Source: Anaerolineales bacterium
Lineage (GTDB): Bacteria > Chloroflexota > Anaerolineae > Anaerolineales > UBA4823
Direction of reading: 5' to 3'
Assembly: GCA_022865865.1 (NCBI GenBank)
Contig: JALHTN010000564.1
Span: 1 to 22,224, forward strand
Length of the DNA: 22,224 nt
Shown here: piece by piece, positions 4,419-18,289 of the stretch
Layout of the letters: each line of letters opens with the position of its first letter
How positions within the stretch are numbered: the first letter of the stretch is position 1
Position numbers and translations under genes: made by a program
Notes under the pieces: generated by a model
What the model was told of the DNA's origin: nothing
What the model saw: the letters and a program-made list of their open reading frames with translations, nothing else
Databases searched by the model: none

Positions 4419-4460
4419 AAAATAAATTAATGGCAGTTTTCTTGAAACCTGGAGGTTGAA

Positions 4461-5534
4461 TTGTCCCCCATGTTCGTCCCAGGCCCGGTGGATGTCCACG
4501 CTGAAGTCCTGGCTGCTCAAGCCCAAGCCATGCTGCCGCACCGCAGCCGGGAATTTGAAAGCCTGTATCAGCGGGTCCGGGAAAAAGCCCAACCCTTGTT
4601 TGGATCCAATGCCCAGGTTTTCATCGTCACCAGCTCGGGCACTGGATTACAAGAAGCTGCCATTCGCAATTTGGCAAAGAAAAATGTGCTCTGCCTGGCG
4701 AATGGCGCTTTTAGTGAACGCTGGTTTGAAGTGGCTAAAAGCAACGGCAAGCTGGCTGATCTGTTAGAGGTTGATTGGGGAAAGGCAATAGCGCCGCAGG
4801 TAGTAGCAGATGCCTTGGAGCAAAAAGAATACGAGCTGGTCACATTGGTTCATAACGAAACCTCAACCGGCGTACAGAATCCGGTGCAGGAGATCGCGGC
4901 TGTGGTGCATGATATCAGCCCCGCCACATTAATATGTGTCGATGCGGTCTCCTCTCTGGGCGGAGTTAATTTTGAGATGGATAAATGGGGCCTGGATATG
5001 GTTTTGACCTCATCTCAAAAATGCTTGGCGCTCCCCCCTGGATTGGCTTTAGCATCTGTATCCGTCCGGGCACTTGATTATGCACGCGGAGTTCCAGATA
5101 GAGGCTGGTACTTTGACCTGGTGCGTATGGCCGAGCACCTGATCAAAGATTCCACTCCTGCGACGCCTGCCATGTCTTTGATCTACGCCTTAGATTTGCA
5201 GCTCGACCGTATCATGGATGAGGGTTTAGAGAATCGCTTTGCGCGGCATAGTGAGATGGCAACTCTCGTGCAGGATTGGGCAATCGCCAATGATTTCAAG
5301 CTCTTCGCAGAAGAAGGGTATCGATCCCAAACCGTGACTGCGGTCTGCAACTCCCCGGGGCTGGACATAAGCGATCTAAATAATTTCCTCATTAAGAACA
5401 AAATGCGCATCGCCAATGGGTACGATCGGCTGCGGGAGAAGACATTCCGCATTGCGCACATGGGCGATACACAGGTTGCTGATATCAACTCTCTTTTAAA
5501 CGCGATAAGCGGTTTCATTGCCAAGAATCAATAA
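4461..5534 (+). CDS. Class V aminotransferase (alanine-glyoxylate / serine-pyruvate type)
   Basis: A PLP-dependent transaminase of fold type I. The start is TTG at 4461, supported by GGAGG (4451-4455) 5 nt upstream; the next ATG (4470) would be 14 nt from the SD. The 357 residues match full family length. Visible marks: N-terminal FVPGPVDVHAEVL, the HRSREF motif at about 27-32, SSGTGLQEAA for phosphate binding (about 58-67), D161 in CVDAVSSLGG contacting the PLP ring nitrogen, and Schiff-base K187 in SSQKCLALPPG. A likely substrate arginine lies in KTFRIAHMG near the C-terminus. Family members use alanine, serine or related donors with glyoxylate or pyruvate; the exact substrate cannot be told. 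The rRNA methyltransferase follows after 25 nt, probably co-transcribed. Confidence 0.92.
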   Translation: MSPMFVPGPVDVHAEVLAAQAQAMLPHRSREFESLYQRVREKAQPLFGSNAQVFIVTSSGTGLQEAAIRNLAKKNVLCLANGAFSERWFEVAKSNGKLADLLEVDWGKAIAPQVVADALEQKEYELVTLVHNETSTGVQNPVQEIAAVVHDISPATLICVDAVSSLGGVNFEMDKWGLDMVLTSSQKCLALPPGLALASVSVRALDYARGVPDRGWYFDLVRMAEHLIKDSTPATPAMSLIYALDLQLDRIMDEGLENRFARHSEMATLVQDWAIANDFKLFAEEGYRSQTVTAVCNSPGLDISDLNNFLIKNKMRIANGYDRLREKTFRIAHMGDTQVADINSLLNAISGFIAKNQ

Positions 5535-6796: not shown

Positions 6797-6827
6797 TTGA
6801 CACAAGAACACATGTTCTGGTATAAAT
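6797..6827 (+). promoter_or_regulatory. Strong sigma70-type promoter of the SOS cassette
   Basis: Perfect -35 TTGACA (6797-6802), an 18-nt spacer, an extended -10 TG at 6818-6819 and TATAAAT (6821-6827). Two LexA boxes overlap it: one fills the spacer and one follows the -10. It begins 10 nt after the rlmD stop and so starts a separate unit. Confidence 0.85.
6805..6818. promoter_or_regulatory. LexA (SOS) box 1
   Basis: AGAACACATGTTCT, with perfect 5-bp outer arms AGAAC/GTTCT around four bases. It matches the GAAC-N4-GTTC core of LexA sites in Gram-positive bacteria. It lies inside the -35/-10 spacer, so bound repressor would block RNA polymerase. Confidence 0.85.
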
Positions 6828-6841
6828 AGAACATATGTTCT
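6828..6841. promoter_or_regulatory. LexA (SOS) box 2
   Basis: AGAACATATGTTCT, a perfect 14-bp palindrome with the GAAC-N4-GTTC core. It begins right after the -10 and covers the expected transcription start. The centre is 23 bp from box 1, about two helical turns, so both dimers would bind nearly the same face of the DNA. Confidence 0.88.
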
Positions 6842-6867
6842 TGTATTTTACTATCAAGGAGTTCAAT

Positions 6868-7677
6868 ATGGCCACTAACTTTATAAATTTACCAACTTTA
6901 TGGAATGGCTCCCAGCAAAGACAAATTCCTGCAACTAGAAATTCTGCTGATTTCTTAACCCAGACCAGGCAGCCCTCCCCACATCTTTCGTCCATTCTTT
7001 CTGAAACCAGCCCCTTCCCGCCATATTCCCTGGTTATTGGCCTTTGCACCGATGGCCTACCCTTCATGCTTAGTCTCGATAATCCAAAATCTGGTTCGAT
7101 CCTGGTTGTAGGAGAAAATGCATGGGCGAAAAGCCAGATACTAAATGCAATGGGTATCTCATCTTGCCGGATCAATCATCCTGAAGAGGTCAGCTGGTCT
7201 GTTATCACAAGAAATGCACACCAATACGCCGAACTGGTGAGCAGCCCTCATTGTCAGGCCGTGATTAACCCTCACGATCGCGCAGCAGGGGAGCTGGTCG
7301 TCGAGATGGCTTCCATTGTCGAGCAAAGAAGGTTTGGACGGGAACGCGGCGGTACGAAAGTGTTAATGATTGATGATTTTCAGAGTTTCGTCCCCATGTT
7401 AAGCGATTATAGTGTGTACTTAAATCTAAAAACCTTGGTATCAAAAGGTCCTGCCTGCGGCATCTGGCCGCTGATTTCTATCAAGTCGGATGAGGCACAC
7501 ACTGAACAGGGTCAACTGCTGCGCACGTTCGGGACCTACATATTCGAGAAAGCCGGGCATGAACCAAGCCATACGCCATCAATAAGGCCCCAGCATACAA
7601 CTGAACCAACCTTCCAACCCAATTTCAATGTCATCGTTGGCGGCAGGCTAATCCCGATCTGCAGCCTATCTATTTAA
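6868..7677 (+). CDS. SOS-controlled FtsK/HerA-like ATPase-fold protein, degenerate Walker A
   Basis: Not a family I can name with certainty. ATG 6868 is fixed by AAGGAG (6856-6861) with a 6-nt gap; an ATG at 6835 lies inside LexA box 2 and is rejected. The 269 residues show a RecA/FtsK-like core. LMLSLDNPKSGSILVVG-type strands lead to a P-loop-like GENAWAKS (about 82-89), where the last glycine before Lys is Ala but Lys and Ser remain. KVLMIDDF (164-171) looks like Walker B, and LVSKGPACGIWPLISIK (190-206) resembles the FtsK/HerA segment GRAAGIHLILATQ. The N-terminal 60 residues and the tail after about 228 are low in recognisable motifs; no membrane helix is visible. A role in DNA-damage response is inferred from the promoter, and ATP hydrolysis is uncertain. 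It probably works with the 89-aa gene 24 nt downstream. Confidence 0.8.
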   Translation: MATNFINLPTLWNGSQQRQIPATRNSADFLTQTRQPSPHLSSILSETSPFPPYSLVIGLCTDGLPFMLSLDNPKSGSILVVGENAWAKSQILNAMGISSCRINHPEEVSWSVITRNAHQYAELVSSPHCQAVINPHDRAAGELVVEMASIVEQRRFGRERGGTKVLMIDDFQSFVPMLSDYSVYLNLKTLVSKGPACGIWPLISIKSDEAHTEQGQLLRTFGTYIFEKAGHEPSHTPSIRPQHTTEPTFQPNFNVIVGGRLIPICSLSI

Positions 7678-7701
7678 CCGCTCGATTCATGGAGATTTAT
7701 T

Positions 7702-7971
7702 ATGAAAGTTGGAATGCTATGGTTTGATAATGACTCGAAATCTGACTTAACCACAAAAGTCTGCCGCGCAGCAAACTACTACCAGGGGAAGTATGGAAAT
7801 CAGCCCAATATCTGTTTTATTCATCCGAGTATGGCCGTACCCGAGCCAGAATTAGACTCGACAGACCAAAATATTAAAGCTGGTGATATTGAAGTCCGGC
7901 TGACAAAAGATGTACTCCCCCATCATTTCTGGATCGGGATACACATCCAGAATGAAAGCCTAGTCACGTAA
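7702..7971 (+). CDS. Small 89-aa protein of unknown function in the SOS cassette
   Basis: I do not recognise this family. The ATG is preceded by GGAGA (7691-7695) at a 6-nt gap, and the gene follows the ATPase-like gene by 24 nt with no promoter between, so it shares the LexA-controlled transcript. It starts MKVGMLWFDND, a beta-strand followed by an acidic turn, then a helix with KVCRAANYYQGKYG, a second strand PNICFIHPSM, a variable Pro/Glu/Asp loop (about 47-58), and a third part VEVRLTKDVLPHHFWIGI with paired histidines. The alpha/beta layout suggests a compact single domain; one Cys lies in the helix and one in strand 2. It has no signal peptide or membrane helix. Its last 8 bp overlap the 3' end of holA on the other strand. 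Confidence 0.75.
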   Translation: MKVGMLWFDNDSKSDLTTKVCRAANYYQGKYGNQPNICFIHPSMAVPEPELDSTDQNIKAGDIEVRLTKDVLPHHFWIGIHIQNESLVT

Positions 7972-8962
7972 TATCGGCTATCAAAAGGTCGATGCTCAAA
8001 TCGATGCTCATCATCCCCGTTTTCAACCCTGCGTCGATTTCAAGCAAGCGATGGAAGATCCCATCCAATTGCGACTGCGAAAAATGGCGCGACTGAGCAG
8101 CGAGTTTTCCGCCAACATAGGGGTGGACATTCAAGAGACGGGTGATGTCCTGCTCTCCACCCTGTTGATCGAGGATCTCTCGTGATTGAAGCAGTAATCT
8201 GAATTGGCGCACGATCATACCAAATATACTCTGGGCATCATTGTCGGCCAAGAGGCGATGATATTCACTAATAGCTCTCTTGCGATCCCGATTTCCCAGG
8301 GCATCGACTAAATCGAAGATACCGCCTTCCGGGAGCAGCGCCGTCAGCTCTGCGACATCAGATTCGGTGACCGGTCTCTCGTAATTTACATATGTCAGTA
8401 TTTTTTTGATCTCCTGGTCAGCCAGACGAACATCACCCCCAACCATTTTTGCCAGGCTGCTGGCAGCCTGTGGTTCGAATTCTCCACCTGTCTTACGTGC
8501 CCGGTCAATTATCCATCCGGTTAATTGAGAGTCGCCTGAAGCGCTGAATTCCCTGGCATATACTTTCCCACCCATCGATTCTCCCCATTTTTGCAACCAG
8601 TGCTTCTTCCCCTGCCTCTTGTCTCTTGCCGCCAGGAGAGGCCGGTGTTCAGATAAAACGACAGCACTTTCTTCCGGGAGAGTTTCCAGCAAGGATAATA
8701 CTCTCTTGCGATTTGTGTCATTTTCCATAAATGCCAGGGGATGGTAGAGAACGGTCAAACGCCGGGAGGCGAGAAATGGCATAGATCTAGCGGCTGTCTC
8801 AAGCTGCTCAATTGAAAGTGAGCGGCCATCCAGAGTGAGGAAATTCAACTCAATTGTGGATGGATCGCCTAATCGAGATTTCAGCGCGGTAATAGCTTCA
8901 TTAATCGCAACAACATCATCTCCATGAAACAGGTAGACGACCGGCTTTTGTTGTTGCTCCAT
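7964..8962 (-). CDS. holA: DNA polymerase III delta subunit
   Basis: HolA is the clamp-loader subunit that opens the beta sliding clamp during replication. The 332 residues match family length (about 330-345). The N-terminal strand VVYLFHGDD begins the first AAA-like domain, which lacks a Walker A as in all delta subunits. MPFLASRRLTVLYH and ESAVVLSEHRPLL are family-like, as are SSLAKMVGGDVRLADQEIKKI (about 173-193, domain II) and GGIFDLVDALGNRDRKRAI in the C-terminal collar region. It starts 2 nt after the stop of the DUF6391 gene, so the two are translationally coupled; no clear SD is visible. Its 3' end overlaps the SOS cassette by 8 bp, tail to tail, with no terminator visible. Confidence 0.93.
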   Translation of the reverse strand: MEQQQKPVVYLFHGDDVVAINEAITALKSRLGDPSTIELNFLTLDGRSLSIEQLETAARSMPFLASRRLTVLYHPLAFMENDTNRKRVLSLLETLPEESAVVLSEHRPLLAARDKRQGKKHWLQKWGESMGGKVYAREFSASGDSQLTGWIIDRARKTGGEFEPQAASSLAKMVGGDVRLADQEIKKILTYVNYERPVTESDVAELTALLPEGGIFDLVDALGNRDRKRAISEYHRLLADNDAQSIFGMIVRQFRLLLQSREILDQQGGEQDITRLLNVHPYVGGKLAAQSRHFSQSQLDGIFHRLLEIDAGLKTGMMSIDLSIDLLIADIT

Positions 8963-16186: not shown

Positions 16187-18289
16187 TTATTCTTCGCTCT
16201 CAGATTCACCCGAATCTTCGTTCTGTGCCTCTGCTTCTTCAGAAGATTCCTCTTCCTCAGTCTCTTCTTCAAGTTCAGCGGGGGACTCGTCTTCGGTTTC
16301 AACTTCTACTTCTGTTTCTTCTGATTCGGATTCAACTTCATCAATCACATCTTCTGCGCTTTCTTCTAATTCTTCAACAGCAAATTCTGCATCGGCAGAT
16401 GTTTGCTCCTCTTCAACAGCAACAAGGCCAGTTTCATCTTCTATGACGATTTCTTCTTCAAGTTCAGTGGGGGACTCGTCTTCGGTTTCAACTTCTACTT
16501 CTGTTTCTTCTGATTCGGATTCAACTTCATCAATTACATCTTCTGCGCTTTCTTCTAATTCTTCAACAGCAGATTCTGCATCGGCAGATGTTTGCTCCTC
16601 TTCAACAGCAACAAGGCCAGTTTCATCTTCTATGACGATTTCTTCTTCAAGTTCAGCAGGGGACTCGTCTTCGTTTTCAACTTCTACTTCTGTTTCTTCT
16701 GATTCGGATTCAACTTCATCAATTACATCTTCTGCGCTTTCTTCCAATTCTTCAACAGCTGATTCTACATCGGCAGATGTTTGCTCCTCTTCAACAGCAA
16801 CAGGGGCAGTTTCATCTTCTATGACGATTTCTTCTTCAGCCTCAATCTCATCAACTTCAACGGAGGCGATCTCGTATTCGACAGGTTCCTCTTCAGCCTC
16901 AATCACTTCAGATTCAGGAAATGCAACCTCAGATTCAACAGGTTCCTGCTCAATTTCAGTCACTTCAACTTCATCAGCTGAAGATTCATCTTCGACAGAT
17001 TCTTCTTCAACCATGGATTCTGCCTCGATAACTTCTTCTTCTTCATCGCCATGGGTTTCTTCAACTACATCAGCCAGGGTCATCTTCCAATCAAAATCTG
17101 AGTAGGCTGGAGAGTCGACTTTTCGTAAACTCAATCCGATGCGGTGACGGTCAGGTTCAATCTTGATCACACGTAGGGTAACAACATCTCCTTCATGAAG
17201 CACTTCTTTCGGGTGTGTGACCCGTTGCTCGCTGATCTCGGAGATGTGAATTAGGCCTTCCAAGTCCTCATCCAAACGCGCGAAAGCGCCAAATTTGGTC
17301 AGGTGTGTGATGGTACCTTCAATCAGTTGACCTTCTTTCAAGTTTTCGACCTTTTTCATCCAAGGATCTTCTTGCAATTGGCGAATAGATAGCCCAATTC
17401 GTTTTCGATCCCGATCAACACCGATAACTTTAACCTCGACTTCCTGGCCAACATTGAGAACTTCTCGGGGGTGCTCGATTCTCTCCCAAGATATCTCGGA
17501 TAGGTGCACCAAACCATCTGCGCCATCGATATTCACAAATGCCCCAAAATCTGCTAAGCTGGTAACCCTTCCGGTACGAACATCGCCTTCAGATAGCTCG
17601 TCTAACAATCTTTCCTTGAGTGATTCACGGGTCTCTTGAAGAGCGGTGCGTTCCGACAGAATTAAACGTCGTCGCTCCCGGTCAACTTCTATAACGCTGA
17701 CGGTAATGGGTTCATCGACCATTTCTCCCCAACGTTGTTCTGGAGTATTCCCACTTGAGTCAATTCTCCGGAGCAAGCTTACCTGTGAGGCTGGAACAAA
17801 CCCCCTTAATTGGCCAACAGGAATGATCAAGCCTCCTTTATTGAAACCAATGATTTTTCCATCGTGGGTTTCGCCAGAGGCAAGCAACGATTCAGCAAAC
17901 AGCCAATCTTTCTCTTCAAGCGCACGGACAAAGGAAAGTATAACGTTACCAGTTTGATCTTCTGGAGTGACTACATAGACTGTAATCTCTTTTCCAATTT
18001 CTAATTGTTCTCGATACTCGGGGTCAATCTGGTCTATTTCTCGAGAAGGAATCACCCCTTCAGATTTTGTTCCAATACTGACTAAGATCTCGTTTTCAGT
18101 AACTCTGGCAACAGTGCCTTTGCGGATGTCCCCCTGGCGTGGCATATCTAACCCCAAGCCATCATCTTCTAGTAACTCTTCCATGGTCGAAGATTGTTCT
18201 TCTTGGTCGCTTGGTTGGGTTATTTCCTCTTCTGGTTGCTCGTTCTCGGTTGTAGCCTCCTGCCCGTCAAGGGCAAAATTTTGATTCAT
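16187..18289 (-). CDS. rpsA: Ribosomal protein S1 with long acidic repeat tail
   Basis: S1 binds mRNA on the small ribosomal subunit. Four S1 domains are visible at about 52-122, 138-213, 234-304 and 319-389. The third and fourth have the strongest signatures, SLADFGAFVNIDGADGLVHL and HLTKFGAFARLDEDLEGLIH. The acidic N-terminal 50 residues are probably disordered. Residues 400-700 are almost wholly Glu/Asp/Ser/Val/Ala; the part at about 487-676 is three near-identical 63-residue repeats. Four domains is usual outside proteobacteria, but the 300-residue tail is unusually long. A clear promoter (18325-18353) and terminator make it a single-gene unit. ATG 18289 has GGAG 11 nt upstream, a loose SD. 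RNA binding is expected from the domains; the tail's role is unknown. Confidence 0.92.
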   Translation of the reverse strand: MNQNFALDGQEATTENEQPEEEITQPSDQEEQSSTMEELLEDDGLGLDMPRQGDIRKGTVARVTENEILVSIGTKSEGVIPSREIDQIDPEYREQLEIGKEITVYVVTPEDQTGNVILSFVRALEEKDWLFAESLLASGETHDGKIIGFNKGGLIIPVGQLRGFVPASQVSLLRRIDSSGNTPEQRWGEMVDEPITVSVIEVDRERRRLILSERTALQETRESLKERLLDELSEGDVRTGRVTSLADFGAFVNIDGADGLVHLSEISWERIEHPREVLNVGQEVEVKVIGVDRDRKRIGLSIRQLQEDPWMKKVENLKEGQLIEGTITHLTKFGAFARLDEDLEGLIHISEISEQRVTHPKEVLHEGDVVTLRVIKIEPDRHRIGLSLRKVDSPAYSDFDWKMTLADVVEETHGDEEEEVIEAESMVEEESVEDESSADEVEVTEIEQEPVESEVAFPESEVIEAEEEPVEYEIASVEVDEIEAEEEIVIEDETAPVAVEEEQTSADVESAVEELEESAEDVIDEVESESEETEVEVENEDESPAELEEEIVIEDETGLVAVEEEQTSADAESAVEELEESAEDVIDEVESESEETEVEVETEDESPTELEEEIVIEDETGLVAVEEEQTSADAEFAVEELEESAEDVIDEVESESEETEVEVETEDESPAELEEETEEEESSEEAEAQNEDSGESESEE
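16262..16828 (-). repeat. Three tandem 189-bp repeats inside rpsA
   Basis: The copies start near 16262, 16451 and 16640, with exact 189-bp (63-codon) spacing, judged from the recurring AAGTTCAG and GGGGACTCGTCTTCG blocks. Copies 1 and 2 differ at about three positions by eye and copy 3 at a few more. The differences keep the frame. Confidence 0.9.

Follow-up and report, generated by a model that had tools for sequence, protein, structure and literature searches.

In a window of 22,224 nucleotides from an Anaerolineales bacterium (contig JALHTN010000564.1, the whole stretch analysed here) two genes lie behind one promoter that carries two LexA boxes. We call these genes A and B (Table 1). A encodes a protein related to FtsK-type DNA motors and B a small protein. 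A stops at 7677 and B begins at 7702, which leaves a gap of 24 nt. The convergent holA gene overlaps the 3' end of B by 8 bases, hence the unit consists of two genes only. An initial annotation had described the locus as a two-gene cassette of the SOS (DNA damage) response. On sequence reading its coordinates, Shine-Dalgarno sequences and gap are correct, and so is its claim that the promoter drives just these two genes.

Table 1. Features of the A-B unit and its convergent neighbour (positions in the window).
Feature	Position	Strand	Basis	Remark
-35 hexamer TTGACA	6797..6802	+	sequence reading	
LexA box 1, GAACACATGTTC	6806..6817	+	pattern search	in the spacer between -35 and -10
-10 hexamer TATAAA	6821..6826	+	sequence reading	18-nt spacer from -35; final base not the consensus T
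LexA box 2, GAACATATGTTC	6829..6840	+	pattern search	just 3' of -10; starts 23 bp after the start of box 1
Shine-Dalgarno AAGGAG, gene A	6856..6861	+	sequence reading	ATG of A at 6868
Gene A, 269 aa	6868..7677	+	homologues, alignments, AlphaFold2 model, fold matches	
Shine-Dalgarno GGAG, gene B	7691..7694	+	sequence reading	
Gene B, 89 aa	7702..7971	+	homologue search, family searches, structure model, conservation	
holA, convergent	7964..8962	minus	TIGR01128	

Both boxes, which the initial annotation had called near-perfect, match GAAC-N4-GTTC perfectly. This is the LexA site of Gram-positive bacteria, according to an excerpt of PMC3323433. The core pattern GAACNNNNGTTC has two perfect copies in the window (pattern search), both in the promoter of A. 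Shuffled sequence is expected to hold 0.29 sites per window, and at least two sites anywhere were found in 4 of 100 shuffles. Two boxes that start 23 bp apart within one promoter is a far stricter condition than two anywhere in the window. To call the promoter 'consensus-strength' is slightly generous: its -35 hexamer, 18-nt spacer and TATAAA agree with the term, but the -10 ends in A, and a promoter scan of the window did not list it, owing to the scan's T6 rule.

The boxes are kept in relatives. A search with the pattern of B matched 271 genome-contig stretches, of which 249 encode a B relative, and the best 80 were analysed (L001 to L080). Their titles name Chloroflexota or subgroups of it; a few (Brevefilum, Aquidulcis) were placed according to the tree listing. 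Boxes were counted between -200 and +15 of the first gene in the 77 loci with at least 150 nt upstream (L023, L054 and L040 have less), and L001 and L021 were counted as B-only despite their fragments of A. A perfect box stands at the start of the operon in 53 of the 77 loci (33 of the 46 loci with A and 20 of the 31 counted as B-only). One locus with both genes and a perfect box, L030, comes from Anaerolinea thermolimosa, a relative in culture. With up to one mismatch the number rises to 70 (45 of 46 and 25 of 31). As controls we took 605 regions that precede other genes of these loci; no perfect box was found among them, and 35 hold a box when up to one mismatch is allowed. Outside the counted upstream stretches, 804,368 nt contain 12 perfect boxes. 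Pairs of boxes 22-24 bp apart were seen repeatedly in the relatives.

The lexA gene itself points to the same site. It scored above the cut-off in nine of ten related genomes, and upstream of it lies a perfect site in six of the nine and a site with one mismatch in three, all between -82 and -102 of the match. Upstream of recA none of the ten genomes has a perfect site and nine have one with a single mismatch. To judge from these relatives, LexA of the clade seems to use a GAACNNNNGTTC-type operator. The initial annotation had named homologues without boxes, and a LexA with a different site, as signs against SOS control. The former amount to 7 of 77 loci, which have no box even at one mismatch, and for the latter all nine lexA genes of the relatives are preceded by a site within one mismatch. 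With the box kept by its homologues to this degree compared with the controls, the SOS-regulated reading of the unit is supported, and from the sequence evidence we have very little doubt that A and B are under LexA control. A literature search, for most papers at the level of search listings, turned up no paper on the Chloroflexota SOS regulon.

Boxes in genome G001 also precede other genes. Among 16 of its 40 sites, a selection that was not random, one finds a family B DNA polymerase gene and an O6-methylguanine-methyltransferase-like gene. The remaining examined boxes are near LuxR-type or other genes, or within genes. At L120 and L122 perfect boxes adjoin genes with LuxR-type (GerE) domains; these may be further LexA targets or chance.

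The product of A is an FtsK/EccC-type RecA-like motor domain, the beta domain alone (alignments, AlphaFold2 model, fold matches). It had been labelled FtsK/HerA-like. The fold is that of an FtsK-type beta domain, but the other marks of the family are missing. Against the FtsK/SpoIIIE profile the window protein scores 12.7 bits, below the curated cut-off of 24, and it has no match to the FtsK_alpha profile and no hydrophobic segment that could serve as membrane anchor. Its Walker A is degenerate (GENAWAKS) and its Walker B (IDD) is without the catalytic Glu. By sequence, A does not pass the family's tests for catalytic residues and domains, and it is better named FtsK-derived than an FtsK.

The degenerate state is common. 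Of 91 aligned homologues, 74 are degenerate. In the tree, from which L223 and a further short, degenerate row were dropped because of their length, the state of the P-loop switched repeatedly among short forms of A; L017, entered as 'short', groups with canonical FtsK. Degenerate A genes remain under purifying selection. Short and long forms of A match each other with a probability of 98.9. In G001, A is a separate gene and two longer FtsK-like frames are also present in the genome.

The initial annotation had also set the pair apart from standard SOS genes. For A this has to be softened: LexA control of an FtsK gene is known from Escherichia coli, where ftsK is SOS-controlled from the promoter dinH (excerpt of PMC4080785). 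SOS control of an FtsK-type gene is thus not new as such. With FtsK/SpoIIIE translocases A shares the motor fold, and its long relatives carry both FtsK_alpha and FtsK_SpoIIIE. In contrast to these translocases the A family shows no clear membrane anchor and, judged by its length, lacks a gamma domain; in the window protein the alpha domain and a normal P-loop are missing as well. From the EccC/EssC ATPases of type VII secretion it differs by its LexA boxes and its partner B, and no type VII secretion genes were recognised by eye in the window. A further likeness is to SftA, the soluble septal FtsK paralogue of Bacillus subtilis, since both are soluble FtsK-type proteins that occur besides a membrane-bound one. 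SftA, however, is a full active motor and is not known to be LexA-controlled.

B had been called an orphan, which it is not. It has 126 homologues at E <= 0.001 and belongs to a large Chloroflexota family, present in 60 of the 301 genomes of a phylum sample. B is a small alpha/beta protein with an LW[FY]D signature; its model (pLDDT 81.7) consists of a single helix plus a small sheet. W7 is present in all of 139 copies and D9 in 138 (L217 is the exception without the Asp). The W-[FY]-D motif ends strand 1, and basic residues are conserved at 19 and 30. Searches of Pfam, NCBIfam and PADLOC gave no match for B, and those of PHROGs gave nothing above noise. An endonuclease VII match in PHROGs (E 0.09, in one of 26 members) is part of this noise. 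No membrane segment was found in B. SulA, YneA and DivS resemble B in being small LexA-controlled genes, several of them beside lexA, but B belongs to none of their families (searches against SulA and LysM families gave no match).

B also occurs on 24 viral contigs. None of these carries a short A, and in none do the 200 nt preceding B contain a perfect box. FtsK-like genes are found in the available flank of 7 of the 24 viral copies. In L081 and L082, a pair that resemble close copies of each other, the FtsK-like gene sits immediately upstream of B. Some contigs have ParA- or ParB-like neighbours (by eye). One viral contig, L086, has besides its B frame a second, weaker B-like frame (E 1e-4); the two lie at 274-513 and 4444-4737.

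In more distant relatives the boxes precede a longer operon. We read 18 such loci (L206 to L223), chosen for having an A-like gene and B together, and a further 11 (L254 to L264), chosen mainly by high scores of a long A; neither set is random. Of the 29 loci, 27 have a perfect box no more than 1,600 nt upstream of A, and 15 have one between -300 and +15 of A. LexA is encoded one or two genes upstream of A in 8 of the 18 loci (Pfam). Pfam confirms it near A in L207, L209, L210, L212, L219, L221 and L222; in L213 its S24 domain is above the cut-off and its DNA-binding domain below, and L218 was read by eye alone.

The long A is an FtsK alpha-beta motor: FtsK_SpoIIIE is above the cut-off in 5 of 5 tested copies and FtsK_alpha in 4 of 5. 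The pattern of the P-loop is intact in all 16 listed copies, 13 of which have no hydrophobic segment and 3 a weak internal one. The order of the longer operon is long A, a membrane protein with two hydrophobic helices, DUF6504 (PF20114) in some loci, and B. The membrane protein follows 3' of long A in 15 of the 18 and 9 of the 11 loci, and DUF6504, of which two copies were confirmed, is found in 10 of 18 and 2 of 11; these counts are partly circular because 8 and 5 of these loci, respectively, went into the search models. DUF6504 stands behind LexA boxes in these longer Chloroflexota operons but not in the two-gene form of the window.

Three side observations belong to this operon. The two-helix membrane protein, for example L209:4302-4658 between long A and B, has a proline-rich tail, and the L209 copy has no match in Pfam. 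A Cys-rich protein (by eye) lies between the boxes or lexA and long A in L211:2531-3028, L210:2425-3297, L212:1687-2658 and L262:3169-3594; it is possibly a further SOS gene, and in L211 and L212 it has no match in Pfam. Finally, 16 B loci were taken from the low-scoring end of the phylum list (not a random set), and 11 of them have a perfect box between -450 and +15 of B. Three of these loci from more distant Chloroflexota, L265, L266 and L268, have a box, a DUF6504-like gene and B, in this order and without A, a second two-gene form of the operon.

The longer operon is probably the ancestral form. The pair in the window looks like a reduced version of this old SOS operon: the long operons stand behind the same boxes, the two forms of A match each other, and B, holA and DUF6391 follow one another in L211, L214 and L220 (by eye) as they do in the window.

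How could such a unit work? We regard the boxes, the B family, the architecture, the repeated change of the P-loop, the purifying selection and the linkage of B to FtsK-like genes as established from sequence, and we infer LexA binding, induction, contact between A and B, a target and an effect. LexA would repress A and B until DNA damage leads to its cleavage, and both proteins would then be made. The ancestor may have had a long FtsK alpha-beta motor without clear anchor or gamma domain, together with the membrane protein, B and in some cases DUF6504, several of these operons including lexA. In the lineage of the window the operon would have shrunk to A and B, with A losing its alpha domain and normal ATP-binding loop. 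A would then most likely act as an FtsK-like scaffold that does not translocate DNA but brings B to a target. The most likely target would be a canonical FtsK-family motor of the cell, or DNA at the division site, and the complex could delay segregation or septum closure until repair is finished.

An action on the chromosome or on division, which the initial annotation had suggested, is plausible. The full proposal, an SOS-induced FtsK-derived module in which A serves as scaffold for B and which keeps segregation of the chromosome and closure of the septum on hold, or redirects them, until repair, is our preferred reading; we hold it tentatively, as quite possible though short of probable. A bolder version, on the doubtful side, is an SOS chromosome checkpoint of Chloroflexota. 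Here a soluble FtsK-type motor encoded together with lexA would have lost its ATPase several times independently in part of the class, the pseudo-motor and B would stall canonical FtsK and septum closure as long as DNA is damaged, and the B of phages would grip DNA motors of the host or their own. The literature we searched holds no description of a soluble, lexA-linked and repeatedly altered version of FtsK with a partner B. The lexA-linked operon contains two uncharacterised families, that of B and that of the two-helix membrane protein. It also raises the question what role an FtsK-like protein that is probably unable to pump DNA has in the SOS response. B itself is a protein family shared with phages and worth study.

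Several observations weigh against the scaffold proposal. Over the whole G001 genome the core GAACNNNNGTTC is not enriched (40 sites against 65 for the reversed pattern). Hence single sites elsewhere prove nothing, and the evidential weight rests on the placing of the boxes. The P-loop of A retains K-S, so weak nucleotide binding is possible. The tree of A has long branches flagged as possibly misplaced. A fold search gave no confident structural relative of B, and therefore B itself gives no pointer to FtsK.

The pairing of A and B is also not strict. Among 396 genomes of G001's class an A-like match is found in 186 and B in 147; 92 have both and 155 neither. A-like matches without B occur in 94 genomes (some are canonical FtsK) and B without A in 55. 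Among the best 80 loci, about 28-30 have B without detectable A, many of them with B behind a box, and 9 of the 11 high-scoring long-A loci have no recognised B. Hence A and B need not act together. A-like and B matches lie within 3 kb in 51 of the 59 genomes of the 92 for which both matches are among those listed, a figure that leans to stronger matches because the remaining genomes had a match ranking lower. The neighbour that recurs beside B, where there is one, is FtsK-like. B alone and long A without a recognised B both occur behind boxes, so a two-gene A-B unit is not obligatory.

Alternatively, the system could be a DNA-repair complex like HerA-NurA, in which the ancestral FtsK-type motor would translocate double-stranded DNA at breaks, with B as its nuclease, clamp or DNA-binding partner. 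The intact Walker A of the long motors, the near-invariant W-[FY]-D and conserved basic residues of B, and the polymerase and methyltransferase-like genes behind boxes in G001 agree with this idea. We still think it unlikely: family searches match B to no nuclease (the endonuclease VII match being noise), one copy lacks the Asp, and repeated loss of the P-loop in a gene that is kept fits poorly with a required motor.

In several groups, small SOS proteins whose genes adjoin lexA inhibit division (yneA, divS, Rv2719c). B, or the membrane protein of the long operon, could likewise block FtsZ or the divisome directly, with A as a mere helper. In many loci a box is followed by B alone, and several lineages have lexA next to the longer operon; both points speak for a SulA- or YneA-like inhibitor. 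Yet B lacks a membrane segment and matches neither SulA nor LysM, the operon of the window has no membrane protein, and the recurrent neighbour of B is FtsK-like, which makes this explanation decidedly unlikely.

It is very unlikely that A is a mutasome accessory, a pseudo-ATPase that aids loading of an error-prone polymerase. Mycobacterial ImuA is a RecA-fold pseudo-ATPase of this kind; by eye, with no family search made, ImuB or DnaE2 genes were recognised neither in the frames of the window nor in the longer operons. That the unit is a module of defence (toxin-antitoxin or anti-phage) or of a mobile element with a borrowed LexA box is highly improbable: the viral copies of B, some with ParA- or ParB-like neighbours, and the PADLOC matches of two proteins (P0064, an intact relative of A, to mad8 at 4e-9 and SspH at 5e-5, as AAA-type motors may, and P0063 to SspH at 8e-7) speak for it, but PADLOC gives nothing for B and at best E 0.006 for the A of the window, no viral B has a perfect box nearby, and the chromosomal neighbours are housekeeping genes, with holA-like frames in 31 of the 80 B loci and frames like the DUF6391 gene of the window in 24.

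Away from the A-B unit, the window encodes at 16187-18289 (minus strand) an S1-repeat-like protein of 700 aa, whose long acidic C-terminal part consists of near-identical repeats (by eye).
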